From positions 230,355 to 294,354 of the forward strand of contig NZ_GG666297.1 in NCBI RefSeq assembly GCF_000159095.1: a DNA stretch of 64,000 nt, given 5' to 3'. The notes below the pieces were generated by a model. The model had not been told where the DNA came from, searched no databases, and saw only the letters and a list, made by a program, of their open reading frames with translations. The translations under genes were made by a program, and so were the position numbers. Shown piece after piece: positions 6,987 to 52,796 of the stretch (within the stretch, counting starts at the first letter, position 1; every line of letters starts with the position of its first letter). Source of the stretch: Anaerococcus tetradius ATCC 35098. Lineage in GTDB: Bacteria; Bacillota; Clostridia; Tissierellales; Peptoniphilaceae.

Positions 6987-7100
6987 GCCTACTTTTTTTA
7001 AGATAGTTTATATAGAAAAATATAAATCTATAATATTTAAAAATAAAAATTACTTCTATAAAGCTAAAAGCTTTAAGCCAGTCTTCTTAACTCCATTATA

Positions 7101-7128
7101 TTGTAAAAATCCATTATAATTGTAGAAT
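7101..7128 (+). promoter_or_regulatory. likely promoter of the barrel protein/P1 peptidase pair
   Basis: TTGTAA (7101-7106), 16 bp, TAGAAT (7123-7128). An overlapping TATAAT at 7115-7120 is an alternative -10 with a poor -35. The rest of 6990-7100 is AT-rich and shows nothing recognisable. Confidence 0.4.
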
Positions 7129-7171
7129 ATTATTTGAAAGATTTATATTTTAAAATAGAAAGAAGGGAAAG

Positions 7172-7858
7172 ATGAGCGAGAAGAAGGAAAAATATATACC
7201 TCAAGTCCATTCCAAACTTAGAAAATCATTTATAACAGTTCCCAAGGAAATATATAAGGCAAGTGGCATCATGATTTTTGAAAAAAGAATCAAGTCCTTA
7301 CTATTTACGACAGATTTGGCTATAATTAGAAATTCTAATGCAGATTCTATTATGGCTGTCTACCCATACACACCTCAAAATTCAATTTCTCAAGCAATCC
7401 TTGACGTTTCTAACGTTCCATGTTTTATTGGTGTCGGTGGTGGAACAACCAAGGGCCTAAGATCAAAATACATAGCAATTGAAGCAGAGCTTGCAGGAGC
7501 CTACGGGGTTGTAGTTAATTCACCAATCCCTAATGAGGATATCAAATCTATTTCGGATTTTATAGACATTCCAGTTATCGCATCAGTAGTTAGCTTTGAG
7601 AATGACTATATGGGAAAAATTGAAGCTGGTGCAGAAATTTTAAATGTATCTGGTGGCAAATACACAGCTGACTTGGTTAGAGAAATCAGAAGAAATATAG
7701 GCGATGAATTTCCAATTATTGCAACAGGTGGAAAGAATGGCGAACAAATACTTAAAACAATCGAAGCCGGAGCCAATGCAATTTCCTATACACCACCATC
7801 AAGTGCAGAAGTATTTGCTTCTATGATGGATGCTTACAGAAATGAGGATATCCACTGA
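7172..7858 (+). CDS. beta/alpha-barrel protein of unknown function (often annotated 'hydrolase')
   Basis: 228 residues. Successive strands end in the order expected of a TIM-like barrel: DLAIIRN, PCFIGVGGGTTKG, GVVVNSP, PVIASVV, AEILNVSGG, FPIIATGGKNG, AISYTPPSSAE. The late glycine turn (IIATGGKNGEQIL, about 183-195) resembles a phosphate-binding loop. I know the family only as conserved in anaerobic Firmicutes without an assigned reaction. The gene ends at 7858 and the P1 peptidase ATG shares its last base (TGATG), so the two are translationally coupled and probably act together. Confidence 0.6.
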   Translation: MSEKKEKYIPQVHSKLRKSFITVPKEIYKASGIMIFEKRIKSLLFTTDLAIIRNSNADSIMAVYPYTPQNSISQAILDVSNVPCFIGVGGGTTKGLRSKYIAIEAELAGAYGVVVNSPIPNEDIKSISDFIDIPVIASVVSFENDYMGKIEAGAEILNVSGGKYTADLVREIRRNIGDEFPIIATGGKNGEQILKTIEAGANAISYTPPSSAEVFASMMDAYRNEDIH

Positions 7859-8781
7859 TGTATGACGGATATTTGACAGATGTAGGAGGGCTTAGGCTAG
7901 GTCATGCCCAGGATATGGAAGGGGGATGTGGTCTATCCATAGTTCTTCCTGATAAGGGCAATACTTGTGGGGTCGATGTAAGGGGTGGAGCACCTGGAAG
8001 TCGTGAAATTGCCCTACTAAATCCCCTAAATCAAGTTTCAGAAGTAAATGGCCTTATCCTTTCTGGTGGGTCTGCTTATGGCCTTGAAGCAGGATCAGTT
8101 CTCATGAAACTCTTAGAAAAAGATGGTCTAGGCTTTGATGTCGGAGTTGGCATAGTTCCTATAGTTTGCCAGGCGGTCTTATTCGACCTTGCCTACAAGA
8201 ACCCTCATGCTAGACCTAATGAAGCTATGACAGAAAAAGCCTACAAAAATGCAAGTTATGAAGATAAAAGCCAGGGCATTATAGGAGCAGGAACAGGAGC
8301 GACAGTTGCTAAGGGCCTAGGTGCAGATCATTTAGTAAAGTCAGGTCTAGGTCAAGCATCAATAAGAAGGGGAGACTTAGTAGTATCTGCCATGGTCGCA
8401 GTAAATGCCCTAGGAGATGTTTTCGACTACGGCAAACAAATTCAGCTGGCAGGTCCAATGGTAGATGGAAAAATGCTAAGGACTATGGATTTTATAGATA
8501 AAATTCTAGCTTCCTTTAAGGATGTCAAGCCAACCAATACTACAATAGGTATAGTTGCAACAAATGCAAGCTTTAATAAGACAGAGCTAACCAAAATAGC
8601 AGGCATGGCCCACGATGGTTATGCTAGAAGTATTAATCCTGTCCACACCCTAATGGATGGCGATACTATCTTTAGTCTAGCCACCAACAAAATCAAAGCA
8701 GATATAAATTTAGTAGGAGCTATGGCTGCGGAGGTCATGAGCATGGCTATAGCTAATGCAATTTATTTTTCTAAAAAATAA
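7858..8781 (+). CDS. P1 (DmpA/NylC-like) family aminopeptidase/amidohydrolase
   Basis: 307 residues of the N-terminal-nucleophile P1 family. The SGGSAYGLEA segment (about 69-78) is typical of DmpA-like proteins. Autocleavage and nucleophile formation in NylC occur at an Asn-Thr bond; the matching place is P-T-N227-T228-T-I-G-I-V-A-T-N, followed by FNKTELTKIAGMAHDG, a hallmark of the family. The mature enzyme would consist of two chains from one precursor. The substrate (D-amino-acid amide, beta-peptide or cyclic amide) cannot be predicted. Coupled to the upstream barrel gene by a one-base overlap. Confidence 0.88.
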   Translation: MYDGYLTDVGGLRLGHAQDMEGGCGLSIVLPDKGNTCGVDVRGGAPGSREIALLNPLNQVSEVNGLILSGGSAYGLEAGSVLMKLLEKDGLGFDVGVGIVPIVCQAVLFDLAYKNPHARPNEAMTEKAYKNASYEDKSQGIIGAGTGATVAKGLGADHLVKSGLGQASIRRGDLVVSAMVAVNALGDVFDYGKQIQLAGPMVDGKMLRTMDFIDKILASFKDVKPTNTTIGIVATNASFNKTELTKIAGMAHDGYARSINPVHTLMDGDTIFSLATNKIKADINLVGAMAAEVMSMAIANAIYFSKK

Positions 8782-8810
8782 TTTTTCATAAAATTGAGCA
8801 AAACTACCAT

Positions 8811-8847
8811 AAAAGCCTTATCTTAATTAAATAAGATAGGCTTTTTT
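8811..8847 (+). terminator. terminator after the P1 peptidase gene
   Basis: AAAAGCC-T-TATCTTA pairs with TAAGATAGGCTTTT across a four-base loop, followed by a T run. Confidence 0.75.
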
Positions 8848-8857
8848 ATTACAAAAA

Positions 8858-8886
8858 TTGTCAAATACTTTATCAAAACTTATAAT
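8858..8886 (+). promoter_or_regulatory. promoter of the lrg-ars-lut-men-fix operon leader
   Basis: TTGTCA (8858-8863), exactly 17 bp, TATAAT (8881-8886). A second TATAAT with a poor -35 lies at 8948-8953. From the first promoter the untranslated leader is about 385 nt, from the second about 320 nt. Confidence 0.55.
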
Positions 8887-8892
8887 TTATGA

Positions 8893-9279
8893 CAAAAACA
8901 AACTTAGATTTTCACAAAAAAACCTTTTCTTTTATTTTCAAACATGCTATAATAAACCCAATAAATCTCTTAGCTTAATGTAGGAAATAATTAGTGATAA
9001 AAGTAAATGATTAAAGTCGATACTTTGGCGTATTAGCAAGGATTATGAAGGAAGAATAGAAAGGTTATAGCTTGTATCAATTTCATCTTTTGTATTGTTT
9101 TCTTGTTAGGGCTTTGAGTTCTGACTTCAATTGATAAACGTTATCACTAGACTTGCGGCTGATTCTTTAGAGTAAACTTTAAAGAAATATCGAAAGGAGG
9201 TAAGAAGGAAATAATTTATGTCGGCTGTTTATCAATAATTGAGCAAATTTGTTACTAATTAAATATAAGAGGAGTTTAT
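8893..9279 (+). promoter_or_regulatory. long structured leader with two competing stems, class unknown
   Basis: This stretch holds no sizeable gene. Bases 9132-9146 form a perfect local hairpin or palindrome TGATAA-ACG-TTATCA. The same left arm, as TTGATAAAC (9131-9139), pairs with GTTTATCAA (9227-9235) with three more pairs across a bulge. The two stems exclude each other. Between the arms of the long-range stem lie AAAGGAGG and a six-codon reading frame with start and stop (9218-9238, MSAVYQ). I find no T-box, glycine, lysine, TPP, FMN, SAM or c-di-GMP consensus. It could be a riboswitch or attenuator. The TGATAA-N3-TTATCA palindrome could instead be a protein operator. Confidence 0.4.
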
Positions 9280-9627
9280 ATGAAATATTTGAAAGAATTT
9301 TGTTACTTGTTGTTTTTCTTATTGCTAGGCTTTATAGCAAAAAAAGTTACTGGCCTTCCAATTCCTGAACCAGTTTTTGGTATGATTTTCTTATTCATAG
9401 CCCTAGTAAGTAAGCTTGTTAAATTGGATGATATTCAATCTACATCTAGCTTTTTGACATCAATCCTAGCCTTTACCTTCACCCCACTTGGAGTTGGTCT
9501 AATGGTTCAATTTGATGTTATAAAAGACAATGCTATAAAAATCTTGATAGTAATGACAATATCATGCCTAATAACAATGGCAGTAACAGCTAAGGTTGTT
9601 GAATTAGTACAAAAAGCGAGGAAATAA
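9280..9627 (+). CDS. lrgA: LrgA/CidA-family holin-like membrane protein
   Basis: 115 residues with four predicted membrane segments and the family sequence LGFIAKKVTGLPIPEPVFGM, matching the G-L-P-I-P-x-x-V-x-G-M signature of LrgA/CidA. Once viewed as holins, LrgAB-type pairs are now known in B. subtilis (PftAB) to be facilitated pyruvate transporters. Placed at the head of a lactate-oxidation operon, transport of pyruvate or lactate is the more attractive reading. One base separates it from lrgB. Confidence 0.88.
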   Translation: MKYLKEFCYLLFFLLLGFIAKKVTGLPIPEPVFGMIFLFIALVSKLVKLDDIQSTSSFLTSILAFTFTPLGVGLMVQFDVIKDNAIKILIVMTISCLITMAVTAKVVELVQKARK

Positions 9628-9628
9628 G

Positions 9629-10372
9629 ATGAGTGAGATTTTAAATACATATTTAGCGGACAATGATTTCTTTGGGATAATCCTCAGTATAGTAATGTTT
9701 AGAATCGGCATGATAATTAACAAAAAAACAAAAATTGCCATTCTAAATCCCCTTCTACTAGCCATAGTTTTTTCTATAGCATTTTTGAAATTGACAGGCA
9801 TAAGCTATGACAATTTCAACAAGGGTGGTAAATACATATCATTTTTAATAGCACCTACAACAGTTGCCTTGGTAGTAAGTTTATATAAAAATATAGACAG
9901 ATTAAAGGCTAATCTTCTACCAATCCTGATAGGAGTTATTGTAGGATCAATAGTAGCTATAATTTCAGCTTATCTCTTATCAAAAGTATTTAGTTTTGAT
10001 AAGGAGCTTACTCTTGCTATGATGCCACAATCAGTAACAACACCAATTGCCAAGTCTCTAACAGAAGAATATGTAGGTAAGTTTATAACAGATGATGTAA
10101 CAATCAAGACCTATGCGGCAATAACAACAATAACAGTTATCCTAAGAGGTACTGTTGGAGCAATCTTTGCACCTACCGTTATGAAAATAATGAAAGTAAA
10201 AGATGCTGTTGCTATGGGTGTTGGAATTGGTACATCAAGCCACGCTATGGGAACATCAAAAGCCATAGAGATGGGTGAAGTTCAAGGAGCTATGAGTGGT
10301 TTATCTATCGCTATAGCTGGTATTTGTACAGTAATCTTGATGCCTATCTTTGTAATGCTATTTATTGGATAA
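9629..10372 (+). CDS. lrgB: LrgB-family membrane protein, partner of LrgA
   Basis: 247 residues with about seven membrane segments. Typical LrgB elements are present: ISFLIAPTTVALVVSLYKN (about 70-88), MMPQSVTTPIAKSLTEE (about 131-147) and the glycine-rich GVGIGTSSHAMGTSKAIEMG near 190-215. Length and order match characterised LrgB/CidB/PftB proteins. Together with LrgA it would form the membrane transporter of the operon. The next gene begins 21 bp downstream on the same strand. Confidence 0.88.
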   Translation: MSEILNTYLADNDFFGIILSIVMFRIGMIINKKTKIAILNPLLLAIVFSIAFLKLTGISYDNFNKGGKYISFLIAPTTVALVVSLYKNIDRLKANLLPILIGVIVGSIVAIISAYLLSKVFSFDKELTLAMMPQSVTTPIAKSLTEEYVGKFITDDVTIKTYAAITTITVILRGTVGAIFAPTVMKIMKVKDAVAMGVGIGTSSHAMGTSKAIEMGEVQGAMSGLSIAIAGICTVILMPIFVMLFIG

Positions 10373-10393
10373 AACTGTAAGTAAGTGAATTAA

Positions 10394-11587
10394 ATGCCTA
10401 AAAAAATATTCATGTACACAGGAAAGGGGGGAGTTGGCAAGACTAGCATAGCTAGTGCCACTTCACTCATTTCCGCAGGAAGTAATATCAAAACTATTTT
10501 GATAAGTATAGATACAGCTCACAGTTTATCTGATGTATTCGATATCAAAATAGCTGGAGATTTTAGGGAGATTAAAGAAAATTTGACTGCCATAGAACTA
10601 GATAGTTCTAAAATTTTGAAGGAAAAGTTTCCTAAGATTAAGACTAACTTAGCAGATGGCTTTAATAGGGCTGATATAGCAGGCTTACAATATAGTTCGA
10701 GTTTCGATATGCCCTTTATTGTTAATATTTTAACCTTACTTGAGATTTTAGCCATCTATGAGAACTACGATTATGAAAATATTATAGTCGATTGTCCAGC
10801 TTCTGCTTCTACTTTTGCTTATTTGAAATTTCCTGAGATGCTTTCTTGGTATTTGGAGAAATTTTTTGGAGTTGGCAAGAAGGTCATAAGGGGCCTAAGG
10901 CCTATTTCAAAATATAAGTATAAGATTGATTTACCTAGTGAAGATTCTTTAGGCCAGTTAGAAGTTATTTATAAAAGATTGCTAAAGTTAGTTAATATCT
11001 TAAAGGATCCAAATATTTCGACCATTAGGCTAGTAGGTCTTGCCGAAAAAATGGTTATAGAAGAAAGCAAGAGAGATTTATCATATCTTAGGCTTTTTGA
11101 TTACAATGTAGATGGATTTTTCGTAAATAGACTCTATGAGGATGATGGAAGTGAATTTATTAAAAAAAGATTAGAGATTCAAAATAAAAATCTTAATCTC
11201 ATTGATAAAATTTTCTACGATGTTCCTATTTTCAAAATCAACTTGATGAAAGAGGATATGAGAAATCTTCATGATTTAGAAAAATTCGCTATGAAAATAG
11301 AAAATAATGATAAACTTATAGAAATTAAGTCTATGCCAGATACATATATTATTGAAAAGAAAAAAGGTACTTATCTAATCAACATATATGTCGGTGATGT
11401 GGATGATGTTGAAGTTTTAAAGAATGGTCTTGACTTAAATATTAGGATAAAGGATGTAAGAAGAATTATAAGTCTTCCTAATATCCTAAAAGATTCAACT
11501 CTATCTAATTATCATATAGAAGCTTCTAAGCTTATGATTTATTTGGATAAGGAGGATCCAGGGCAAAATGATGAGAATTATAATTAA
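10394..11587 (+). CDS. ArsA/Get3-like ATPase, first of a tandem pair
   Basis: 397 residues. The deviant Walker A motif with signature lysine is GKGGVGKTS (about 10-18), switch I is IDTAHSLSDVF, and the switch II position is VDCPASASTF. The last about 75 residues (ending in RRIISLPNILKDS and LMIYL) resemble the HSP20-like domain found at the end of bacterial ArsA proteins. It has a single cysteine (in VDCP), so the ArsA metalloid site and the Get3 CxxC are absent, and no ars gene is nearby. A role in arsenic export is therefore unlikely. Overlaps the second ATPase gene by 20 bp, which suggests a heterodimer. Confidence 0.85.
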   Translation: MPKKIFMYTGKGGVGKTSIASATSLISAGSNIKTILISIDTAHSLSDVFDIKIAGDFREIKENLTAIELDSSKILKEKFPKIKTNLADGFNRADIAGLQYSSSFDMPFIVNILTLLEILAIYENYDYENIIVDCPASASTFAYLKFPEMLSWYLEKFFGVGKKVIRGLRPISKYKYKIDLPSEDSLGQLEVIYKRLLKLVNILKDPNISTIRLVGLAEKMVIEESKRDLSYLRLFDYNVDGFFVNRLYEDDGSEFIKKRLEIQNKNLNLIDKIFYDVPIFKINLMKEDMRNLHDLEKFAMKIENNDKLIEIKSMPDTYIIEKKKGTYLINIYVGDVDDVEVLKNGLDLNIRIKDVRRIISLPNILKDSTLSNYHIEASKLMIYLDKEDPGQNDENYN

Positions 11588-12734
11588 TACGGGCAAAGGC
11601 GGTGTTGGTAAAACTACCCTATCTGCTCTTACAGCCATAAATATCTCAAAGAGATTAAAAACTCTTGTTGTTAGTAGTGATACAGCTCATAGCCTTAGTG
11701 ATTTATTTAGAAAACCTTTATCAAACGAAGCAAGACTAATAGATGAAAATTTGTATGCACTAGAAATAAATCCTTTAGTTGAGGGCAAGAAGGCTTGGGG
11801 TAAGTTAAATTCTTATTTAAGAGAAATTATTAAGAATAATGCAATGGATGATGTTCAGACTGATGAACTCTTACTTATGCCAGGTCTAGATGATATTTTT
11901 TGCCTGCTAAAGATTTTAGAAATTTATAAAGAAGGAAAATATGAAGCCCTAGTAGTTGATTGTGGACCCAGTGGAGAAACTATATCGTTTTTATCAACTG
12001 GTGAAAAGCTAAAGAACTTAGCTGATAATCTTCTACCGACCTTAAAGCGATTTAACAATATTTTTGGGGGCTTTATTGAGAAAAAAACAGAAGTTAAAAA
12101 ACCCAAGGACATAGTCTTTGATGAGTTTATAAAATTGTCTAAGGATTTATACGAGCTTGAAGAGATTCTTAGAGATAAGAAGATTACAAGTATAAGGCTT
12201 GTAAGTAAGGCGAATAGGGTTATAGCCAATGAAGCCTTTAGAACTTATAGCCTAGCTAATCTTTATGGTTTTACTACGGATTTAGTATTTATTAATATGA
12301 TTTTTCCTGACCAGCTCAAGAATACAAGCTATGCTAATTTGTTAGATGAAGAAAGAGAAAATATAAAGAGAATCGAAGATTATTTCTTTGATAAGGAAAT
12401 AATCAAACTTTCTTTACAAGATGATGAAGTGATTGGCATAAAAGCCTTAAATATTCTACACGATAAGGTATTTGCTAACTATAAGCTAGAAGATGTTTTT
12501 GTGGATTACGAGGTTTTCGAGATTATACAAGATAAAGCTAGCAAAATAGTTTCTATAGATATTAAAGAGGCTAGTGAAAAGGAGGTGAGTGTAGAAAAGA
12601 TAGGAAATGATTTGGAAATTTCATATCTAAATTTCAAAAGGAGATTTAAATTGCCAGATAGTGTGTCTTCCAGGAAAATAAGTTCATTTTCACTGAAAGA
12701 TAATAAGTTGAGAATTGTAATGGATTATGACTGA
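11568..12734 (+). CDS. ArsA/Get3-like ATPase, second of a tandem pair
   Basis: 388 residues, organised like its neighbour: GKGGVGKTTLSALTA, SSDTAHSLSDLF (switch I), VVDCGPSGETISFL (switch II) and a C-terminal HSP20-like segment (RRFKLPDSVSSRKISSF, LRIVMDY). Only two cysteines, both in core strands, so no metalloid-binding triad. In classic ArsA two such halves are one polypeptide; here they are separate, overlapping genes. The two copies are clearly diverged from each other, so a heterodimer is more likely than a recent duplication. AAGGAGG at 11550-11556 serves the ATG at 11568 or 11571. Confidence 0.85.
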   Translation: MMRIIINTGKGGVGKTTLSALTAINISKRLKTLVVSSDTAHSLSDLFRKPLSNEARLIDENLYALEINPLVEGKKAWGKLNSYLREIIKNNAMDDVQTDELLLMPGLDDIFCLLKILEIYKEGKYEALVVDCGPSGETISFLSTGEKLKNLADNLLPTLKRFNNIFGGFIEKKTEVKKPKDIVFDEFIKLSKDLYELEEILRDKKITSIRLVSKANRVIANEAFRTYSLANLYGFTTDLVFINMIFPDQLKNTSYANLLDEERENIKRIEDYFFDKEIIKLSLQDDEVIGIKALNILHDKVFANYKLEDVFVDYEVFEIIQDKASKIVSIDIKEASEKEVSVEKIGNDLEISYLNFKRRFKLPDSVSSRKISSFSLKDNKLRIVMDYD

Positions 12735-12773
12735 AATTGTAGAAAAAATTCTAATATTGAGAGGTTTTAAATA

Positions 12774-13322
12774 ATGGAGAGTAGATTGGAATTATTTGAT
12801 ACTTTTGCCAAAAACCTAGAGGCTGTCAATGGTACTTGCTATAAGACAGATAAAGCTAATTTGGCAGAAACCATTGTAAAGATTTATAAGGATAATGGCA
12901 TTGATTCAACTTGTATGCTTGAAACAGACCTAGCTAAAACAGCAGGTTTAAGTAAGGTGCTTATGGATAATGGTATCCAAGTACATAGTGATCATATCAG
13001 ATTAAATAGCGAAACCGATAAGGGTGGGATTACAGAAGTTGCCTATGGTATAGCTGAACTTGGTTCTTTAATTCAAGCCAGTGATGATATAGATAATAGA
13101 TTAATGGCTATTATGCCAGAATATTATATAGGCATAGTTAATGGATCAACAATTGTGGAAACATACGATGATATGTTTGACAAACTTGCTGAGCTTAAAC
13201 CATTTCCTAAATATGTCGGTTTTATAACAGGACCTTCTAGAACAGCAGATATTGAATGTGTTGGTACTGTTGGTGTTCATGGACCTTTACAAATGAGCGT
13301 AGTTATAGTTACAGACTTATAG
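12774..13322 (+). CDS. lutC: LutC-like LUD-domain protein (lactate utilisation)
   Basis: 182-residue single LUD domain. The C-terminal signature ITGPSRTADIECVGTVGVHG, followed by a beta strand ending in VIVTD, is diagnostic of LutC/YkgG. It is somewhat shorter than B. subtilis LutC (about 240). LutC is a required subunit of the LutABC iron-sulfur L-lactate dehydrogenase. It lies 31 bp before the LutB-LutA fusion, so all three lactate-utilisation modules are present but in the order C-(B-A). Confidence 0.9.
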   Translation: MESRLELFDTFAKNLEAVNGTCYKTDKANLAETIVKIYKDNGIDSTCMLETDLAKTAGLSKVLMDNGIQVHSDHIRLNSETDKGGITEVAYGIAELGSLIQASDDIDNRLMAIMPEYYIGIVNGSTIVETYDDMFDKLAELKPFPKYVGFITGPSRTADIECVGTVGVHGPLQMSVVIVTDL

Positions 13323-13353
13323 TTTAAAGATCTAAATTTATGAGGAGAAAAAT

Positions 13354-15513
13354 ATGGTTGATAGTGTAAGTTTAAAAGACGAGATAAAGGATGCGTTAGA
13401 TAATGCGACCTTGGGTAGAACTTTAGGAAATTTCTGTAAAACATATCCACAAAGAAGACTAAATTCTTATGCTGGAGTTGATTTTAAGAATACTCAACAA
13501 ACTATTAAGAAGGTAAAATCTTATGCTGCTGAACATGTTGATCAAATGATCGCAGAGTTTACTAAAAATTGCGAAAAAAGAGGCGGACATGTTGTTGTAG
13601 TTAAGAGCAAGGAAGAAGCAGCTGAATGGGTTAAAAACTTCATCAAAGAAAAAAATATTAAGTCAGCAGTAAAATCTAAATCAATGTGCTCAGAAGAGAT
13701 ACATTTTAATCATATTCTTGCTGAAAATGGAGTAGAGTGTCAAGAAACTGACCTTGGCGAATTTATCATTTCCCTAGAACATAATACACCAGTACATATG
13801 GTAATGCCTGCTCTTCACTTAAATAAGGAACAAGTAGCAGATTTATTTTCAGATTATACAAAGACCAACCACGAGCCAATAATATCTGAAGAAGTAAAGA
13901 CAGCAAGAAAGGTTATGAGAGATAAATTCATTAACGCCGACTTGGGTGTTTCAGGAGCAAATGTTGCTGTAGCTGAAACAGGAACAGTCTTTACAATGAC
14001 AAATGAAGGTAATGGTAGGATGGTTGGAACCCTACCTAAAAATCATCTATATATCTTTGGTATTGAAAAATTCGTAAATTCTATATCAGATGCTAGATGG
14101 ATTTTCAAGGCTTTGCCACGTAATGGTACTGCACAAAGAATAACTTCTTACTTATCTATGTACACAGGTGCTTGTGAAGTTGTTACAGATAAAGAAAATG
14201 ACACTAAAGAAGATAAGGGATTTTATTGTCTAATATTAGATGATCCAGGAAGAAGAGAAATTTTAGCTGAAGAAGAATATAGAGAAATCTTTAACTGCAT
14301 CAGATGTGGTGCTTGTCTAGACATTTGTCCAGCTTTTGCCCTAGTTGGTGGTCACGTTTATGGTTCTAATGTCTATACTGGAGGAATTGGTACCCTACTA
14401 ACCCACTTCCTAATAGATGAAAATAGAGCAAGTGAAATCGAAAGTGTATGTCTCCAATGCGGTAGATGTAATGAAGTTTGCGGTGGTGGTCTTCCAATTG
14501 CCCAAATGATAATGGGAATAAGAGAAGAAAATGTAAAGAATAATCCAAATCCTATCAAGAAATTCGCCCTAGATGCTGTTACAGATAGGAAACTCTTCCA
14601 CTCACTACTAAGAATTGCTTCAATAGCTCAAGAACCATTTAGCAAGGGTGGAACTATGATTAGGCACTTACCTGATTTTGTTTCAGGCATGACTGGAGGA
14701 AAGGTCCTACCAAGTATTGCAAAAGTTCCATTAAGAGATATCTTTGATCTTATCGAACAAGATGTCAAAAATCCTAAGGGAACAGTTGCCTTATTTGCAG
14801 GTTGTTTACTAGACTTTGTGTATGTCGATACTGCCAAATCACTAGTTAAGAATATGAACTCAATTGGCTATAAGGTTGAATTCCCACAAGGTCAAGCTTG
14901 CTGCGGTTGTCCTGCAAGCAATATGGGTGATGTGGAAAATGCTAGAAAAGAAGCCGAAATTAACATCAAGGCTATGGATGCAGAAAAATATGATTACATC
15001 CTTCTTGCTTGTCCATCATGTACCCACCAACTTCAATCTTACAAGACTTTCTTCGAAGAAGGTAGCGAGATGTACAAGAGAGCAGAAATCTTGGGATCTA
15101 AGTGTGTAGATTTCTGTAAGCTATTCCACGAAATAGACGATAGCGAAAATCATGGAGATGGCAAAAATATCAAGGTAACCTATCATGATTCTTGCCACTT
15201 AAAGAGAACCTTGGGAGTATTTGAACAACCAAGAGATCTACTAAAGAATACCGACGGTGTAGAATTTGTAGAAATGGAAGATAGCGACAACTGCTGTGGA
15301 TTCGCAGGATCTTACAATGTTTTATATCCAGATATTTCTTCAAAAATCCTAAAGAACAAAATTGAAAACATTAAAAAATCTGGAGCAGATGTTGTAGCTG
15401 TGGATTGTCCTGGTTGTATGATGCAAATTAGGGGCGGTCTTGAGGCAGAAGGCTTAGATATTAAGGTTAAACACACTTCAGAAATTATATCTGAAAAGAG
15501 AGGACTCATCTAA
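13354..15513 (+). CDS. LutB-LutA fusion: iron-sulfur lactate oxidation protein
   Basis: 719 residues in three parts. Residues 1-300 are a LUD domain (GVSGANVAVAETGTVF). Two 4Fe-4S motifs follow, CIRCGACLDICP (C315, C318, C321, C325) and CLQCGRCNEVC (C366, C369, C372, C376). Residues about 480-719 carry two LutA-type CCG repeats (CCGCPASNMGD with CPSC; DSCHLKRT with CCGFAGSYNVL and DCPGC). In B. subtilis LutA and LutB are separate. Electrons from lactate probably leave through the clusters to a carrier or quinone. Two bases separate it from the polyprenyl synthase gene. Confidence 0.9.
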   Translation: MVDSVSLKDEIKDALDNATLGRTLGNFCKTYPQRRLNSYAGVDFKNTQQTIKKVKSYAAEHVDQMIAEFTKNCEKRGGHVVVVKSKEEAAEWVKNFIKEKNIKSAVKSKSMCSEEIHFNHILAENGVECQETDLGEFIISLEHNTPVHMVMPALHLNKEQVADLFSDYTKTNHEPIISEEVKTARKVMRDKFINADLGVSGANVAVAETGTVFTMTNEGNGRMVGTLPKNHLYIFGIEKFVNSISDARWIFKALPRNGTAQRITSYLSMYTGACEVVTDKENDTKEDKGFYCLILDDPGRREILAEEEYREIFNCIRCGACLDICPAFALVGGHVYGSNVYTGGIGTLLTHFLIDENRASEIESVCLQCGRCNEVCGGGLPIAQMIMGIREENVKNNPNPIKKFALDAVTDRKLFHSLLRIASIAQEPFSKGGTMIRHLPDFVSGMTGGKVLPSIAKVPLRDIFDLIEQDVKNPKGTVALFAGCLLDFVYVDTAKSLVKNMNSIGYKVEFPQGQACCGCPASNMGDVENARKEAEINIKAMDAEKYDYILLACPSCTHQLQSYKTFFEEGSEMYKRAEILGSKCVDFCKLFHEIDDSENHGDGKNIKVTYHDSCHLKRTLGVFEQPRDLLKNTDGVEFVEMEDSDNCCGFAGSYNVLYPDISSKILKNKIENIKKSGADVVAVDCPGCMMQIRGGLEAEGLDIKVKHTSEIISEKRGLI

Positions 15514-15515
15514 AA

Positions 15516-16508
15516 ATGAACTTGCAAATAAGTGATGTTTTATCCAAAGAAAATCTTATAGAAGACCTAGTCATTGAAATCCATCAAGAAATAAAAAATA
15601 TTTTGGGAGATTATAAGTCTAGCCAAAATCTGTATGACATTATCAAAGATGCCTTGAGATCTTCTGGAAAGATGATTAGGACAAAGCTGCTTATTTGTAT
15701 AAGTCTTATGGGAGAAGAAGAAATAAGTGATAAGATTATTTCCCAATGTGCGGCAGTAGAGATAACTCATCTAGCATCGTTAATCCACGATGATATTATA
15801 GACGATTCTACATTAAGGAGATCTCACAAATCAACTCAAGCAAAATACGGCAAGGATGTAGCTGTATTTGCTGGAGATTATATGATAGCTAAAGTTTTTA
15901 GTTATCTAGCAAAAAAAGGCTATGTCGAAGAGATTTCCGTAATAGCCGACACTATTAGGGATATGTGCAACGGAGAAGTTGGACAAAATCTAAATAAGTA
16001 CAAGATAAATGTAAGTACTGATGAATATTTTGAAAATATTTCCGGTAAGACTGCTTCATTTTTTAAGACTGTTTGTTATTTTGGCTCCAAAAATTGTGGC
16101 TTTGATAGGAAAGATACAGAAAAAATGGTAAGATTCGGACAAAATCTCGGCCTAATGTTTCAGCTAAAAGATGATTTGCTGGATTTATTTTCTGAAAAAG
16201 CCCTAACAGGTAAGGAAGAATTTTCAGATCTTAGGGAGGGCATATATACCTATCCAATAATCCTTGCTCTACAAAATGAAGAATATGGCAAGGATATATA
16301 TGATATATTAGTGAAAAATAGACAAACTTCTCTAGATAAAAAAGACTTCCTTATCCTAAGGGACTTACTTAAAAAGGCTAGGGCGGATTTTCTAAGTTCA
16401 ATGATGATTAAAAAACTTGCAGATGAAAACAGATTCATCCTAAAAAGCTTAGATTCTGGTAGAAGCACCTACCTATATAAGATTTTAGAAAAAGTTGAGA
16501 AATTCTGA
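15516..16508 (+). CDS. polyprenyl diphosphate synthase, probable heptaprenyl/octaprenyl class
   Basis: 330 residues with both aspartate-rich motifs of long-chain trans-prenyltransferases: LIHDDIIDDSTLRR (first, about residues 90-103) and LKDDLLDLF (second, about 217-225). The GKMIRT basic motif lies near residue 52. It makes the isoprenoid tail of a quinone in the cytoplasm. Its stop overlaps the start of the UbiA-type prenyltransferase by one base (TGATG), tying its product to quinone assembly rather than to cell-wall undecaprenyl synthesis. Chain length cannot be read from sequence. Confidence 0.88.
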   Translation: MNLQISDVLSKENLIEDLVIEIHQEIKNILGDYKSSQNLYDIIKDALRSSGKMIRTKLLICISLMGEEEISDKIISQCAAVEITHLASLIHDDIIDDSTLRRSHKSTQAKYGKDVAVFAGDYMIAKVFSYLAKKGYVEEISVIADTIRDMCNGEVGQNLNKYKINVSTDEYFENISGKTASFFKTVCYFGSKNCGFDRKDTEKMVRFGQNLGLMFQLKDDLLDLFSEKALTGKEEFSDLREGIYTYPIILALQNEEYGKDIYDILVKNRQTSLDKKDFLILRDLLKKARADFLSSMMIKKLADENRFILKSLDSGRSTYLYKILEKVEKF

Positions 16509-17428
16509 TGCAAGCCTATCAAAGAATGACAGTAAAAAACATAATAAATTTTGCTAATCCTAGGACTTTTGTAGCTTCAATAATACCGGCAATCTTTGGC
16601 ATATTATTAAGCCTTAAACTAGGCTATAGCCTAAGTTTAGCTAGGGCCTTGGCTCTTATAATGGCTTGTGTATTTTTCCAGGCAGCTGTAAATACCATAA
16701 ATGACTATAGCGACTTTGTTAATGGGGTTGACAGCTTGGATGATAATTTAGAAGAAGACGATAATGTTATGTTTTACTCTAACATTAGACCTAAGAGTGT
16801 AGAAAATTTAGCAATAATTTTTCTACTAATAGGAATCGGACTTGGATTTTTGGGCCTTGATAGGATGAATTTCCCAAGCCTTGTCATAGCTTTTATAGGC
16901 TTACTTACAGTTTTTCTTTATTCCAAGGGGCCTTTACCAATTTCATACTTACCAATTGGAGAATTAGTAAGTGGCTTTGTAATGGGTGGTCTGATACCAC
17001 TTGGAGTATTCAGTGCAGTAAGCAATAGCTTTGATGGAAAGATTCTATTAGCTAGCCTTCCCTTTATGCTAGGTATTGCTCTTATCATGATGAGCAATAA
17101 TGCTAGTGATATAGAAAAAGACAGGAGAGCAAAAAGATACACCCTGGCAGTTGTGATGGGTAGGCAAAAGGTAAAAGTTTTGTATAAAATATCTATTCTT
17201 CTCTGGCTAATAAGTCAATTAAGTCTAACATATTATTTGGCAGGACTTCCAATACTTGCACTAAACAGTGTCTTCTTGATCTTGAGGCTAAGATTGATAA
17301 GAAATGTTTTTACAGCAAGTCTTCTTCCAGAAGTTAGGATTGGGCAGATGATAAGTATTGTTAAGGCTAATGTTTTGATAAATGGAGTCTATTTGACTGG
17401 TATATTAATAAGTTTATTCGGAGCTTAG
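16508..17428 (+). CDS. menA: UbiA-family prenyltransferase, MenA-like
   Basis: 306 residues with about eight membrane helices. The first substrate-binding motif is NTINDYSDFVNGVDSLDD (N-D-x-x-D-x-x-x-x-x-D); the second aspartate region is NNASDIEKDRRAKRYTLAV (about 198-216), as in MenA. It would attach the prenyl tail to 1,4-dihydroxy-2-naphthoate in the membrane. Genes for the early menaquinone steps (menF, D, H, C, E, B) do not occur in this window, so the acceptor may be imported. Flanked by the tail synthase and the methyltransferase. Confidence 0.85.
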   Translation: MQAYQRMTVKNIINFANPRTFVASIIPAIFGILLSLKLGYSLSLARALALIMACVFFQAAVNTINDYSDFVNGVDSLDDNLEEDDNVMFYSNIRPKSVENLAIIFLLIGIGLGFLGLDRMNFPSLVIAFIGLLTVFLYSKGPLPISYLPIGELVSGFVMGGLIPLGVFSAVSNSFDGKILLASLPFMLGIALIMMSNNASDIEKDRRAKRYTLAVVMGRQKVKVLYKISILLWLISQLSLTYYLAGLPILALNSVFLILRLRLIRNVFTASLLPEVRIGQMISIVKANVLINGVYLTGILISLFGA

Positions 17429-17429
17429 G

Positions 17430-18119
17430 ATGGATAAAAGCAAAAAGGTTTATGATATATTTCAAAGAATATCGCCATTTTATGACGATGCTAACGATAG
17501 GATTAGTTTAGGTTTACAGAAAAAGTGGAAAGAAGAACTGGTTAAACTGATACTAGAAAATCCCAAAGCAAACTTGAGTCTACTAGATATATGTTGTGGA
17601 ACTGGGGATATTTCTATAGGCCTTGCGAAAAATTCTCATGCAGAGATAGTCGGCTTAGACTTTTCGGAAAATATGTTAAAAATTGCCGAAAATAAAAAAG
17701 GCTCACTTACAAATCTTTCCTTTGTAAGGGGTGATGCCAAAAATCTAGCCTTTGCTGATGAATCTTTTGATGGGGTTTGTATATCTTTTGGCCTTAGAAA
17801 TACAGATGACTACAAAAAAGTAATAAGCGAGATGTTGAGGGTCCTTAAAAATAATTCTTATATATATATTATGGATTCCTTTCTCGTAGAAAATAAGTTG
17901 ATAAAGCCATTCTACAAGGTCTTTTTCAAATACCTAATGCCCATCTTAGGTGGGGGTATGCGACGATATAAAGATTATAGCTGGTTATATGAGTCAACCA
18001 AGAATTTTATTAGTCCTAGGGAGCTTATGGATATACTTGATAGTTTTGGTGTTAAAAATATAAGAACAAAAAAGATGTTATTTGGCGCTTGTGTTATAGT
18101 AAAAGGACAGAAATTATAG
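17430..18119 (+). CDS. menG: MenG/UbiE demethylmenaquinone methyltransferase
   Basis: 229 residues, class I SAM methyltransferase. Motif I is LLDICCGTGDISIGLA (about 48-63). The UbiE/MenG signatures are present: the opening VYDIFQRISPFYDDANDRIS, SFGLRNTDDY, and MPILGGGMRRYKDYSWLYES. This step methylates demethylmenaquinone to menaquinone. One base lies between it and the prenyltransferase stop. With the two preceding genes it forms a complete tail-prenylate-methylate block. Confidence 0.92.
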   Translation: MDKSKKVYDIFQRISPFYDDANDRISLGLQKKWKEELVKLILENPKANLSLLDICCGTGDISIGLAKNSHAEIVGLDFSENMLKIAENKKGSLTNLSFVRGDAKNLAFADESFDGVCISFGLRNTDDYKKVISEMLRVLKNNSYIYIMDSFLVENKLIKPFYKVFFKYLMPILGGGMRRYKDYSWLYESTKNFISPRELMDILDSFGVKNIRTKKMLFGACVIVKGQKL

Positions 18120-18134
18120 ACTAAAAATAAACAC

Positions 18135-19442
18135 ATGGGGGAAAAAATGAGTGAAGATAAGTTTGATGTCATAATAGTTGGAGGAGGAGTTGCAGGTCTT
18201 GCTGCATCCATAGTCCTAGCTGAAAATGATTTTGAAGTATTGTTAGTTGAAAGAGGAGACTACTGCGGAGCTAAAAATGTTACAGGCGGAAGGCTTTATG
18301 GTCATAGTCTAGAGAAAATCATCCCAAACTTTGCAGATGAAGCTCCTATTGAAAGAAAAGTTGTAAAAGAAAAAATTTCTATGATGAGTGCAAAATCATC
18401 CCTAGACATAGGCTACTCATCAAAAGAATTAGGAAAAGATAAAGATTCTTCATCATATGTAGTCTTACATAGTAAGTTTGATCAATATTTGGCAGAAAAA
18501 GCAGAAGAAGCTGGTGTTGCAATAATCACAGGAGTTCTCGTAGATGAAATCTTAGTAGAAGATGGCAAGGTTGTTGGTATCAATGCAACAGGCGAAGAAA
18601 TGTATGCTGATGCTGTAATAGTTGCTGATGGTGTAAACTCCCTCCTATCCCAACAATTAGGAGTTAAGAAAGAACTTGAACCTAACCAAGTGGCTGTAGG
18701 TGCTAAGGAAGTTATCGAATTATCAGAAGAAATAATTAACGAAAGATTTAACCTAGAAAGTGGAGAAGGAATGAGCTGGCTATCTTGTGGCGATCCAACT
18801 ATGGGAGGCTTCGGTGGTGGCTTTATTTACACTAACAAAGACTCTATATCAATCGGTGTAGTAGCTACTCTTTCTGATATAGGCTACGCAAATACAAGCA
18901 TTAATGACCTTCTAGAGAGATTTAAGGAACATGAAAGTGTTGCACCATTTATCAAGGGTGGAAAGACTATAGAATATTCAGCTCACTTGGTTCCAGAAGA
19001 AGGTTTACATATGATTCCAGAACTCTTCGGAGATGGCTTCCTAGTAGTTGGTGATGCAGCTGGCTTTTGTGTAAACCTCGGCTATACAGTTAGGGGTATG
19101 GACTTTGCTATAGAAAGTGGTAGACTTGCAGCCCTAAGCCTAATAGCAGCCAAAGAAAGAGGAGATTATAGCAAAGAAAGCCTAGCTATATACAAAACAC
19201 TAGTTGATCAATCTTTCATCATGAAAGATTTACAAACTTTCAAGGCCTTCCCAACAATTCTAAGTAGAAGAGAAATCTTCAAAGACTTCCCAGAAATACT
19301 AAATGATGTTGCAGCTAGGGCCTTCACAGTAAATGGTGGCGACACTAAAGGCTTTATCATGGGTACAGTAAATGATCTTGCTAGCAGAATGAGTGCAGGA
19401 CAAATTTCAGACTTTATTTCAACAGTAATGGAGGCAATGTAA
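18135..19442 (+). CDS. fixC: FixC-like ETF:quinone oxidoreductase flavoprotein
   Basis: 435 residues. The N-terminal FAD-binding Rossmann motif is VIIVGGGVAGLAASI with the acid VERGD, and the second FAD contact GDGFLVVGDAAGFCVN lies near residue 295-310. Length and order match FixC/EtfC. Such proteins pass electrons from ETF (FixAB) to quinone together with ferredoxin FixX, which follows with a one-base overlap. No fixA or fixB lies in the operon, so the donor is unknown: ETF encoded elsewhere, or LutBA itself. RBS ggggg is 5-6 nt before the ATG at 18147, an alternative start. Confidence 0.9.
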   Translation: MGEKMSEDKFDVIIVGGGVAGLAASIVLAENDFEVLLVERGDYCGAKNVTGGRLYGHSLEKIIPNFADEAPIERKVVKEKISMMSAKSSLDIGYSSKELGKDKDSSSYVVLHSKFDQYLAEKAEEAGVAIITGVLVDEILVEDGKVVGINATGEEMYADAVIVADGVNSLLSQQLGVKKELEPNQVAVGAKEVIELSEEIINERFNLESGEGMSWLSCGDPTMGGFGGGFIYTNKDSISIGVVATLSDIGYANTSINDLLERFKEHESVAPFIKGGKTIEYSAHLVPEEGLHMIPELFGDGFLVVGDAAGFCVNLGYTVRGMDFAIESGRLAALSLIAAKERGDYSKESLAIYKTLVDQSFIMKDLQTFKAFPTILSRREIFKDFPEILNDVAARAFTVNGGDTKGFIMGTVNDLASRMSAGQISDFISTVMEAM

Positions 19443-19726
19443 TGAAGAGAATGAGCGTTGAGGACAAGTTAGGTCTTGACATCTATCATACAGACGAACA
19501 CAACTCACATATAGATGTAGATACTGACTATAAGGACGAAGAAGAAATCCATAAATTATTGATGGCTTGCCCAGCAAGCTGTTATACTTATGTAGATGGA
19601 GTATTTGGATTTAGCCACCTAGGTTGCCTAGAATGTGGAACTTGTAGGGTACTATCCCATGGCAAAATCGTAAAAGATTGGCAACACCCTCAAGGAGAAG
19701 TAGGAGTAAGCTTCAGACAAGGTTAA
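19442..19726 (+). CDS. fixX: FixX-like ferredoxin
   Basis: 94 residues. Cysteines occur as CPASC (about 39-43) and CLECGTC (about 59-65), the FixX arrangement that binds one 4Fe-4S cluster. The C-terminal W-x-x-P-x-G-x-x-G-V-x-F-R matches the family. It shares the membrane side with FixC and completes an ETF:quinone oxidoreductase-like pair. It is the last gene of the eleven-gene block; a strong terminator follows at 19770-19843. Confidence 0.9.
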   Translation: MKRMSVEDKLGLDIYHTDEHNSHIDVDTDYKDEEEIHKLLMACPASCYTYVDGVFGFSHLGCLECGTCRVLSHGKIVKDWQHPQGEVGVSFRQG

Positions 19727-19769
19727 GTTAGACTCAATTAACTTAGAGATATAACTTGTATCAAATATC

Positions 19770-19843
19770 ATAGAAAAGGCTGTATAAGGCCAATCACCAT
19801 TTGCTTGTAGAATGATGATTGAAGACTAACAGCCTTTTTCTAT
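19770..19843 (+). terminator. terminator of the lrg-fix operon
   Basis: ATAGAAAAGGCTGT pairs with ACAGCCTTTTTCTAT (one-base bulge) across a loop that itself contains short complementary runs. The T run is within the descending arm. Confidence 0.8.
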
Positions 19844-19914
19844 GCTATATTAAGCAAAAATTTTATAAAAGAATAAAAATCTATAAAATGATATTTATAA
19901 TTTATAGGAAATTC

Positions 19915-19984
19915 TTGACAATAAAGCTTATATGAAGTATTATACACAGGTAATGATTCTCTACTCCGTTTATATAGACGGGGT
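19915..19984 (+). promoter_or_regulatory. promoter and S6-leader-like hairpin of rpsF
   Basis: TTGACA (19915-19920), 17 bp, TATTAT (19938-19943). Shortly after the expected start, ACTCCGT (19963-19969) pairs with ACGGGGT (19978-19984), followed by GGTC-AAA-GACC complementarity directly before the Shine-Dalgarno. Firmicutes often control rpsF through an S6:S18-binding leader. Position and CCG content fit, but I cannot verify the consensus. Confidence 0.5.
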
Positions 19985-20008
19985 CAAAGACCACAGGGAG
20001 GTGAAAAC

Positions 20009-20293
20009 ATGAATAAATACGAAGCAGTATTGATTTTCAAAGCTGATATGGCGGATAGTGATAGAATCGCTTTACTCGATAGATTTAAAGAAATCATCGG
20101 TCAAAACGGTGAAGTAACTAGCGTTGATGATTGGGGAAGAAGAAAACTTGCTTACGAAATTAATGACCTAAAAGAAGGTTATTATTATATCGTTGACTTT
20201 AACTCAAACCCAGACCATATCAGAGAATTTGAAAGAAGACTAAGACTTTCAGATTTTATAATCAGATACATGGTTATCAGAAAAGAGGACTAA
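20009..20293 (+). CDS. rpsF: 30S ribosomal protein S6
   Basis: 94 residues with the S6 fold order: MNKYEAVLIFKADM strand, WGRRKLAYEINDLKEGYYY centre, and the RRLRLSDFIIRYMVIRK end. It has the usual length and a perfect ribosome-binding site (gggaggtg). It leads the conserved rpsF-ssb-rpsR operon; S6 binds 16S rRNA as a heterodimer with S18. Confidence 0.98.
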   Translation: MNKYEAVLIFKADMADSDRIALLDRFKEIIGQNGEVTSVDDWGRRKLAYEINDLKEGYYYIVDFNSNPDHIREFERRLRLSDFIIRYMVIRKED

Positions 20294-20296
20294 TCA

Positions 20297-20827
20297 ATGA
20301 ACAGAGTTATCCTTATCGGAAGGTTAGTAAGAGATCCTGAGTTAAGATATACTCAATCTCAACAAGCTGTGTGTACTTTCACACTAGCTATAGATAAGAA
20401 ACTTAGCAGAGAGAGAAGAAGCGAATTGGAAGCTTCAAATCGTCCTACAGCTGATTTCCCAAGAATAACGGTTTGGGGAAGACAGGCGGAAACCGCAAGC
20501 ACATATCTCAAAAAAGGAAGTCAATGCGCTATAGAAGGTAGAATCCAAACAGGATCCTATCAAGACAAAGAAACAGGCAAGACTGTTTATACAACAGATG
20601 TTGTAGCTGATAATGTTGAATTTCTAGGTACTAGATCTGACAATATGGGAGGATCTAACTACAATTCTAGAAACAACTATGACAATCAAGACACCTATAG
20701 AAATGACTATTCACAAACAAATAACCACCAACAAAGTCAAGGCAATAATCAAGCTTTTGATGGTGGCGATGATTTTTTTGATGATGACTTTACCGAGATA
20801 GAAGACGATGGAAGAATTCCATTCTAA
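20297..20827 (+). CDS. ssb: single-stranded DNA-binding protein
   Basis: 176 residues. The OB-fold runs over 1-108, opening MNRVILIGRLVRDPELRYT, with W60-G-R-Q-A-E as the conserved central strand. A low-complexity N/Q/S-rich linker (about 115-155) follows, and the tip DDDFTEIEDDGRIPF is acidic. That tip ends the protein and recruits repair and replication partners. It sits 3 bp after rpsF, the standard position for the housekeeping SSB. Confidence 0.97.
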   Translation: MNRVILIGRLVRDPELRYTQSQQAVCTFTLAIDKKLSRERRSELEASNRPTADFPRITVWGRQAETASTYLKKGSQCAIEGRIQTGSYQDKETGKTVYTTDVVADNVEFLGTRSDNMGGSNYNSRNNYDNQDTYRNDYSQTNNHQQSQGNNQAFDGGDDFFDDDFTEIEDDGRIPF

Positions 20828-20845
20828 TATAAGAAAGGATTTATG

Positions 20846-21073
20846 ATGGCAGGAAGAAGATTCAGACCAAGAAAAAAGGTAGATCCATTTGTAAAAGATC
20901 CATCAAAAGTTATCGATTATAAAGATATTGAAACTTTAAAAAGATTCGTTACAGATAGAGGTAAGATCTTACCAAGAAGAGTAACAGGTCTAAATGCAAA
21001 ACACCAAAGAGAAATCACACGTGCTATTAAACGTGCTCGTCAAGTTGCATTATTACCATACGAAGAAAACTAA
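20846..21073 (+). CDS. rpsR: 30S ribosomal protein S18
   Basis: 75 residues from the second of two adjacent ATGs; AAAGGA is six bases before 20846 but only three before 20843, so the second is preferred. The sequence has the basic start and the diagnostic stretch [19 protein letters not shown] followed by [20 protein letters not shown]. It completes the rpsF-ssb-rpsR operon. Confidence 0.97.
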
Positions 21074-21326
21074 GATAAGAAGAGATAATATATAAACAAA
21101 TTTCAATAAGCAATATTAAGGGAGCTATCTTGTTATGAAAAAGCGTATTAATTTATTGAGCTTCCTAGAACATTTTCTGTTAAGGATTTGTTGTTAGGAA
21201 GTCCAAGAGAAAATAGCATTTCATGAGAAGACTTGCTTCTTTTTTATTATAATCATGAAAAAATGAACTTTATTTGTATATTTCTATGATTTATATTAAA
21301 ATTGTATAAAAGAAAAGGAGGAAATT
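21074..21326 (+). terminator. structured 3' region and terminator of rpsF-ssb-rpsR; promoter region of hppA
   Basis: AGAAG-acttg-CTTCT at 21226-21240 followed by Ts is a simple terminator. Upstream, CTTCCTA (about 21159) can pair with TTAGGAAG (about 21194), giving an extra stem-loop of unknown meaning. The remainder up to 21326 is AT-rich and contains the hppA Shine-Dalgarno (aaaaggagg). Confidence 0.55.
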
Positions 21327-52540: not shown

Positions 52541-52612
52541 CTTATCTCCTTTGAAACTCCTTTTATCTGTTTTGTTACATTATTAACTATACCAGCTATT
52601 TAGGAAAATTAA

Positions 52613-52647
52613 ATTATATATTAATGATTATTATTATCGGTAATAAT
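52613..52647 (-). promoter_or_regulatory. probable promoter and palindromic operator of the flavodiiron gene
   Basis: On the minus strand a TATAAT (-10) lies at 52618-52613. The perfect palindrome ATTATTA-TCGG-TAATAAT (52630-52647) covers the spacer and the -35 position. It could bind a repressor of the Fur/PerR or another redox family; the exact box is not a known consensus. Confidence 0.4.
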
Positions 52648-52796
52648 CTAAAAAAAATTAAATTTTATAATTTAACAAAAAATTATGTTAGAAATAATTT
52701 GTTTGGGTATAAATAGGGTGAAAACAATTACAAAAACTTGCCAAACATATACAATTCGGCTGATATAATTTATAAATTTTAAATTAAGGAGAAATA

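Follow-up and report, generated by a model that had tools for sequence, protein, structure and literature searches.

A block of eleven co-directional plus-strand genes at 9280-19726 of a 64,000-nucleotide stretch of Anaerococcus tetradius ATCC 35098 (contig NZ_GG666297.1, positions 230,355 to 294,354; hereafter the window) can be read, with a probability of roughly 0.5, as a quinone-bridged module of lactate oxidation. Electrons would pass from lactate through the dehydrogenase LdhGH to menaquinol and from there through FixCX and the electron transfer flavoprotein (ETF) EtfBA to crotonyl-CoA. The identity of the module and its conservation are firm, and there is good support for its dependence on a quinone head group from outside. 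That the electrons go on from menaquinol through FixCX and EtfBA to crotonyl-CoA is the most parsimonious interpretation, at about even odds; the direction of FixCX, EtfBA as its partner and the roles of lrgAB and of an ATPase pair in the same block are what we infer. The genome that holds the window comprises 2.15 Mb in 100 contigs and is 97.95% complete. Seven genes make up the core:

12774-13322, plus strand: ldhG, LUD-domain small subunit of a quinone-type L-lactate dehydrogenase (PF02589, 95.3 bits)
13354-15513, plus strand: ldhH, its fused LutB-LutA-type large subunit (NF045670, 992.7 bits, cut-off 800)
15516-16508, plus strand: long-chain polyprenyl diphosphate synthase for the quinone tail (PF00348, 189.8 bits)
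16508-17428, plus strand: menA-like 1,4-dihydroxy-2-naphthoate (DHNA) polyprenyltransferase (PF01040, 99.5 bits; motifs NDYSDFVNGVD and DIEKD)
17430-18119, plus strand: menG/ubiE, demethylmenaquinone methyltransferase (TIGR01934, 226 bits, cut-off 158.35)
18135-19442, plus strand: fixC, flavoprotein like ETF-quinone oxidoreductase (ETF-QO; 265.5 bits to FixC 7koe_C)
19442-19726, plus strand: fixX, ferredoxin-like partner of FixC (NF011993, 72.3 bits, below the cut-off of 166)

The first two of these genes, which an earlier note on this DNA had named LutC and LutB-LutA, are by their profile matches the LdhGH pair of a quinone-type L-lactate dehydrogenase, with a predicted L-lactate:quinone activity. 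LdhH is a single protein of 719 amino acids with two CxxCxxCxxxC and two CCG motifs, and ldhG, which encodes a LUD domain only, lies 31 bp upstream of ldhH; the pair is adjacent in all 16 loci that we tabulated. Quinone-linked LdhGH (NCBIfam NF045670) was described in Desulfovibrio. An assignment to LutABC was rejected, LutB and LutA being fused and TIGR00273 reaching 343.3 bits against a cut-off of 444.8.

The three genes that follow supply a tail synthase, MenA (by best family and motifs) and MenG. The prenyl synthase falls under the cut-offs of all NCBIfam equivalogs and carries the motifs DDIID and DDLLD with an alanine at position -5 of the first; by the textbook rule, alanine five residues before the first DDxxD motif goes with a long-chain prenyl product. 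For the menA product the top NCBIfam models are MenA models, each below its cut-off, and we take NDYSDFVNGVD and DIEKD to be the two UbiA-type motifs. The head-group steps present a different picture. MenD exceeded its cut-off in none of 31 genomes of the genus, with weak matches in seven (50.9 against 244.2 bits in A. tetradius). We further searched 15 cassette-bearing genomes, namely that of the window and those of 14 loci described below, a set which includes metagenome-assembled genomes (MAGs) without completeness figures as well as genome G040 and excludes G424. MenB was over its cut-off in none of the 15, and the weaker matches in 13 of them (best 171.5 against 342.7 bits) are taken to be other crotonases; MqnA and MqnD had no match in any. 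Neither the chorismate nor the futalosine route to the head group was thus seen by way of MenD, MenB and MqnA/D, a search to which MenF, MenC, MenE and MenH did not belong. A complete local quinone synthesis was rejected, since none of MenD, MenB and MqnA/D was over its cut-off; the claim that the quinone is made in place therefore stands for tail, joining and methylation and falls for the head group.

Because the cassette-bearing genomes have no menB over cut-off and no MqnA/D, the head group is probably scavenged, a synthetic route of some other kind being the alternative. It would be taken up as DHNA, with only tail synthesis, joining and methylation carried out locally. Retention of these late genes without a head-group route is, by analogy, the pattern of organisms that import DHNA or another precursor. 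Gut isolates have been reported to be induced by DHNA or menaquinone-4 (PMC5738691), and Lactiplantibacillus plantarum, which has DmkA, is described as relying on added DHNA (PMC9888254).

FixC is closest to the FixC subunit of the Thermotoga EtfABCX complex, the next match being the mammalian-type ETF-QO 2gmh at 92.5 bits. Two FixC-type NCBIfam models gave 463.3 bits (cut-off 466) and 457.4 bits (cut-off 610) and were both missed; the ETF-QO quinone-binding domain PF21162 was found at 32 bits, over its cut-off of 27.7. The fixX product has no Pfam match, and its gene is present in all 16 tabulated loci. A plain geranylgeranyl reductase was rejected on scores, TIGR02032 giving 108.6 bits against a cut-off of 158.8 and MenJ 53.6 bits.

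The combination of genes, which had seemed unfamiliar, is in its core not unique to this organism. A scan for fixC with one genome per species yielded 127 relatives, and the analysis used the best 80; the closest named ones, from Anaerococcus degeneri, lactolyticus, obesiensis and vaginalis, are 88-89% identical. When these loci were classed by the presence of ldhH within 6 kb of fixC, 14 among the best 80 of 127 had ldhH beside fixC. Together with the window and locus L157 from a phylum sample (genome G424) they form the 16 tabulated loci, which were thus chosen for joint ldhH and fixC. All seven core genes (ldhG-ldhH-prenyl synthase-menA-menG-fixC-fixX) are present in 15 of the 16, which speaks against a chance assembly, and the gene-neighbourhood search that had been proposed recovers the core in Peptoniphilaceae (Anaerococcus), Filifactoraceae ([Eubacterium] yurii), Lachnospiraceae and Megasphaera, at least four families. 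Variants occur: ldhH of L012 (6807-8992) is split into two overlapping frames, a LutB-like and a LutA-like half; ldhG of L008 is cut by a contig end; and L014 has an L-lactate permease (PF02652, 347.4 bits) inside the cassette, beyond which the prenyl synthase follows 2 kb further down. A tree of 81 FixC proteins places the 15 cassette rows together beyond a single branch supported at 99/96; one extra row there is that of L013. Moreover, pairwise identities of the seven core proteins across 15 loci correlate with r of 0.73-0.97 (without control for the species tree), as expected if the seven genes travel together.

In the phylum sample of 398 genomes, LdhH matches with an E value of 1e-60 or lower occur in 96, weaker ones being LutB-type partial matches. 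We examined 32 of the 55 matches over 500 bits that were not our own loci. The cassette occurs in one of them (G424, the closest match); in the remaining 31, ldhG and ldhH are present and there is no match for prenyl synthase, menA, fixC or fixX. Genes for L- and D-lactate enzymes are often clustered here, a gene for an LctD-type FAD oxidase lying near LdhGH in 17 of the 32 loci, three of which (L174, L183 and L186) have etfBA as well; elsewhere, therefore, LdhGH accompanies D-lactate/ETF-type enzymes. On this sampling, the cassette is a marker of one LdhH/FixC lineage and not a general feature of LdhGH. We recognised no description of it in the titles, abstract openings and passages seen of the open full-text literature, which is no proof of absence.

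If FixCX works with any ETF in A. tetradius, the sole candidate found is a single EtfBA pair on a different contig from the block. Its cluster, of the butyrate type, reads bcd-etfBA-crotonase(crt)-hbd-thiolase(thl)-CoA transferase, with profile matches behind bcd, etf and the crotonase and the remainder assigned by reading, and both EtfBA subunits come closest to bifurcating ETFs. Divergent from bcd-etfBA lies the gene for an LctD orthologue (L149, 3375-4799, contig C99; 460 bits to 7qh2_C), which suggests that one EtfBA may serve lactate through LctD, crotonyl-CoA and perhaps FixCX. The 14 cassette loci of the fixC scan, five of which end less than 4 kb away on the 3' side, show neither etfA nor etfB in the 4 kb around fixC, against 32 of the 66 non-cassette loci with at least one of them there; the adjacent-ETF counts are lower bounds because some loci of both classes end near fixC.

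Redox potentials are given as about -190 mV for lactate and about -70 mV for menaquinone (PMC5861303). Since menaquinol at -70 mV cannot reduce pyruvate at -190 mV under standard conditions, LdhGH should only fill the quinone pool; if FixCX also filled it, a quinol sink would be needed. Cytochrome bd was found in none of the 15 cassette-bearing genomes, and oxygen respiration through it was rejected on that count. The A. tetradius genome has no full-length match to a fumarate reductase-type (FrdA) flavoprotein, PF00890 covering 30-36 of 414 positions, and no match to a molybdopterin oxidoreductase. These results agree with the view of the earlier note that the block is a compact lactate-to-quinone unit in a fermenter, and no quinol sink common to the cassette genomes emerged among those searched, Ndh2 not being one of them. 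For Megasphaera elsdenii, an older observation recounted in PMC5861303 has lactate dehydrogenase feeding EtfAB and, with butyryl-CoA dehydrogenase, crotonyl-CoA; an exit of electrons through FixCX to EtfBA and crotonyl-CoA would be consistent with it.

In the mechanism that we favour, LdhGH would oxidise L-lactate to pyruvate and reduce menaquinone in the membrane, the menaquinone having been completed on site from scavenged DHNA by the prenyl synthase (tail), MenA (joining) and MenG (methylation). FixCX would withdraw electrons from menaquinol and pass them to the single EtfBA of the cell, and EtfBA would hand them to butyryl-CoA dehydrogenase for the reduction of crotonyl-CoA to butyryl-CoA. 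An acyl-CoA would in this way be reduced at the expense of lactate, downhill by way of menaquinone, and neither NADH nor ferredoxin would be consumed. LrgAB would even out pyruvate across the membrane, and the ATPase pair, which is Get3d-like, could use ATP to carry some hydrophobic client of the module. The whole picture of a quinone-dependent fermentation with a scavenged head group, lactate electrons running backwards through FixCX and the Get3d-like pair as dedicated carrier is more tentative, and we would put it at somewhat under even odds.

Several observations weigh against this mechanism. Textbook FixABCX reduces quinone through FixCX, and characterised FixCX runs from ETF to quinone. 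Locus L012 (genome G040) has neither menA nor menG beside fixC. An ETF and an acyl-CoA dehydrogenase, whose presence in 13 of the 15 cassette-bearing genomes each speaks for the mechanism, are missing from a few MAGs, the former from G035 and G041 and the latter from G035 and G036, perhaps through incompleteness. Some molybdopterin oxidoreductase occurs in seven of the 15. Moreover, three FixC relatives from Lachnospiraceae have a molybdopterin enzyme nearby in place of LdhGH: in L018, which has menA and a prenyl synthase, the enzyme is encoded some 5 kb upstream of the fixC relative and has ferredoxin and NrfD subunits; in L033 it lies in the fixC neighbourhood; and in L013 it belongs to a same-strand gene run ending in fixCX. 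In these three loci FixCX more likely feeds quinone. The A. tetradius genome also encodes multi-FMN_bind proteins and EetA/EetB-type domains, a possible quinol sink. Finally, the ATPase pair is not essential to the core, because the Megasphaera cassettes have none alongside. As a separate observation, L013, L018 and L033 combine related fixCX and prenyl synthase genes with menA or menG, and such fixCX-quinone modules seem to swap partners.

Three other explanations can be set beside the proposed flow from menaquinol through FixCX to crotonyl-CoA. FixCX-EtfBA might be confurcating, with menaquinol and reduced ferredoxin together yielding two NADH, as a quinone-linked modular counterpart of LctBCD. 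The sole EtfBA being closest to bifurcating ETFs, the LctD orthologue divergent to bcd-etfBA, the nearness of FixC to the bifurcating complex 7koe and an rnf operon in the A. tetradius genome (by reading) all speak for it; however, it looks redundant given LctD beside the same EtfBA, unless the two are split between L- and D-lactate, and ETF genes were not seen beside the cassettes. We consider it unlikely. Equally improbable in our estimate is a menaquinone hub with inputs from LdhGH and, by way of EtfBA, from FixCX and with a different acceptor as output, which in Anaerococcus would lie outside the cell and be reached through EetA/EetB-like and multi-FMN surface proteins. Such a hub gains from L018 with its molybdopterin enzyme. 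For the extracellular route, NusG_II (102.7 bits) and Hpre_diP_synt_I (150 bits) genes, presumably EetA and EetB, lie at 3868-4844 of L200 (contig C100) beside the rnf operon, and a frame of 1216 amino acids contains four FMN_bind stretches. The two kinds of component are located apart in A. tetradius, where Ndh2 was not part of the search, and membrane-type frames of 235 and 228 amino acids beside the FMN_bind proteins have no Pfam match. Loci for flavin-based extracellular electron transfer (FLEET) are likewise reported to hold demethylmenaquinone (DMK) genes and to use added DHNA (PMC9888254). Yet an extracellular sink is not general: in G038 (Frisingicoccus caecimuris) and in the Megasphaera genomes G043 and G044 there is just one FMN_bind match apiece, in RnfG-sized frames of 190-207 amino acids (that of G038 within what reads as an rnf operon), and G036 lacks any.

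Far less probable than either is an action of FixCX on the polyprenyl tail in the manner of MenJ or geranylgeranyl reductase, which would reduce the block to lactate dehydrogenase and quinone synthesis. FixC does belong to the geranylgeranyl reductase superfamily, as its sub-threshold TIGR02032 match indicates, and it adjoins tail-building genes; however, the FixC-type models reach 457-463 bits, below their cut-offs, against 53.6 for MenJ, the ETF-QO quinone-binding domain is over its cut-off, and every tabulated locus retains fixX.

The remaining four genes of the block lie upstream of the core:

9280-9627, plus strand: lrgA-like, putative pyruvate-type transporter subunit (PF03788, 88.3 bits)
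9629-10372, plus strand: lrgB-like, putative pyruvate-type transporter subunit (PF04172, 221.9 bits)
10394-11587, plus strand: ArsA/Get3-like ATPase 1 with a C-terminal alpha-crystallin-like domain (PF02374, 212.4 bits; PF17886, 37.2 bits)
11568-12734, plus strand: ArsA/Get3-like ATPase 2, of the same architecture

Two ATPases are present as had been described; by architecture, the supposed ArsA-like pair is Get3d-like, and its position relative to the core varies. PF17886 is over its cut-off in both proteins. The structural models match 8egk/3igf over their full length with pLDDT values of only 73.5 and 76.7, and for ATPase 1 Foldseek aligned 403 columns to NosGet3d 8egk (TMq 0.65). As to a possible hydrophobic client chamber, confidence in the models is lowest at 87-105 and 159-180 of ATPase 1 and at 144-177 of ATPase 2, in the helical part between the ATPase motifs. 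A CxxC motif is absent from both; ATPase 1 has Cys134 alone and ATPase 2 has Cys112 and Cys132. The NosAFP model NF050088 (cut-off 325) was missed by both at 73.7 and 66.2 bits. An arsenite-pump ArsA for arsenic detoxification was rejected, TIGR04291 giving 56.2 and 70.1 bits against a cut-off of 650. An ArsA-type gene accompanies the core in 11 of the 16 loci: it precedes the core in Anaerococcus, diverges from it in E. yurii and follows it in Lachnospiraceae. None lies beside the two Megasphaera cassettes or those of L012, L014 and L157. At the level of whole genomes, all PF02374 matches of the Megasphaera MAG G044 are weak (best 1.7e-5). Strong matches do occur in Megasphaera cerevisiae G043, on other contigs and in frames of arsenite-pump size (597 and 424 amino acids), and the genome of L014, G041, shows a single good one where a contig ends.

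The lrgAB pair had been taken as transport at the front of the unit, which is not supported as put: LrgAB relatives (PftAB/LrgAB) have been reported as pyruvate transporters in Bacillus subtilis and Streptococcus mutans, and lrgAB occurs in five of the 16 loci, every one from Anaerococcus. By analogy, a pyruvate transporter is the more likely identity of the pair in the block.

Recomputed spacing agrees with the earlier description of eleven genes on one strand with intergenic gaps of -20 to +39 bp, and the block is likely a single transcript. Hairpins lie on both sides of it:

8811-8845, plus strand: hairpin with a U-rich tail (-13.8 kcal/mol, z -4.5), likely terminator of the upstream gene
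19765-19848, plus strand: hairpin with a U-rich 3' arm (-28.6 kcal/mol, z -4.6), likely terminator of the block

Neither was picked up by a consensus terminator scan. A sigma-70-like site with an 11/12 match lies at 8858-8886; however, such sites number 59 in 7000-22500 and are no commoner than in shuffles (mean 59.5), which deprives any promoter claim of weight, whether for the front of the block or for its interior. An Rfam search of 8700-20100 returned no matches, and the lrgA leader is weakly conserved across Anaerococcus species except for the ribosome-binding site and start.

Outside the block, the A. tetradius genome has two copies of an acyl-CoA dehydrogenase fused to an EtfA FAD domain and adjoining a flavodiiron-type protein, and such fusion sites were recorded at window 51326-54482, L150 1973-5158 and L152 8749-11970. 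A similar arrangement exists in [Eubacterium] yurii (by reading). The terminal rubredoxin domain of the second Anaerococcus copy is without its cysteines, which the E. yurii copy retains, and the pair possibly serves acyl-CoA-driven oxygen removal. In addition, an open frame of 2207 amino acids at 44521-51144 of the window resembles, by eye, a cell-wall subtilisin-type protease.

If our reading is correct, lactate oxidation by this route in Anaerococcus, Megasphaera, Frisingicoccus and their relatives would depend on DHNA provided by neighbours. Menaquinone would gain a role in organisms usually called plain fermenters, FixCX would have a possible reverse role, and butyrate producers would have a further way of oxidising lactate, one tied to cross-feeding of a vitamin K precursor. 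The Get3d-like pair of non-photosynthetic bacteria, in turn, would gain a defined functional setting.

The module shares features with several known systems. As with LdhGH of Desulfovibrio, where lactate dehydrogenase is reported to be menaquinone-linked (PMC11406415), LdhH exceeds the equivalog cut-off and a LUD-only LdhG adjoins it; whereas that host respires, LdhGH of Anaerococcus is accompanied by quinone-finishing genes and FixCX. FLEET loci with DmkA/DmkB in Listeria and Lactiplantibacillus are likewise redox loci carrying their own DMK synthesis genes, but they start at Ndh2 and end extracellularly, and the passages on them in PMC9888254 that we consulted name no lactate dehydrogenase or FixCX. 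In the confurcating LctBCD of Acetobacterium woodii, lactate electrons also reach an EtfAB, there with LctD in a soluble complex with its own EtfAB, whereas the cassette would interpose a membrane quinone and FixCX; unlike in the single operon of that system, LctD of A. tetradius is encoded on the strand opposite to bcd-etfBA and outside the block. The LrgA and LrgB families stand in tandem as in PftAB/LrgAB, and the Anaerococcus pair differs in its link to lactate oxidation and in scoring below the NCBIfam cut-offs, transport being only predicted. With Get3d of Nostoc and Arabidopsis, the ATPases have in common the Get3 ATPase fold, the C-terminal alpha-crystallin-like domain and the absence of CxxC; in contrast, Anaerococcus has two tandem paralogues about 28% identical, with an intact GKGGVGKT, in a non-photosynthetic host. 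Finally, FixC and FixX are paired as in FixABCX/EtfABCX of Azotobacter and Thermotoga maritima (7koe), but in the cassette they stand without adjacent ETF genes, next to LdhGH and quinone tail genes, and their direction is possibly reversed.

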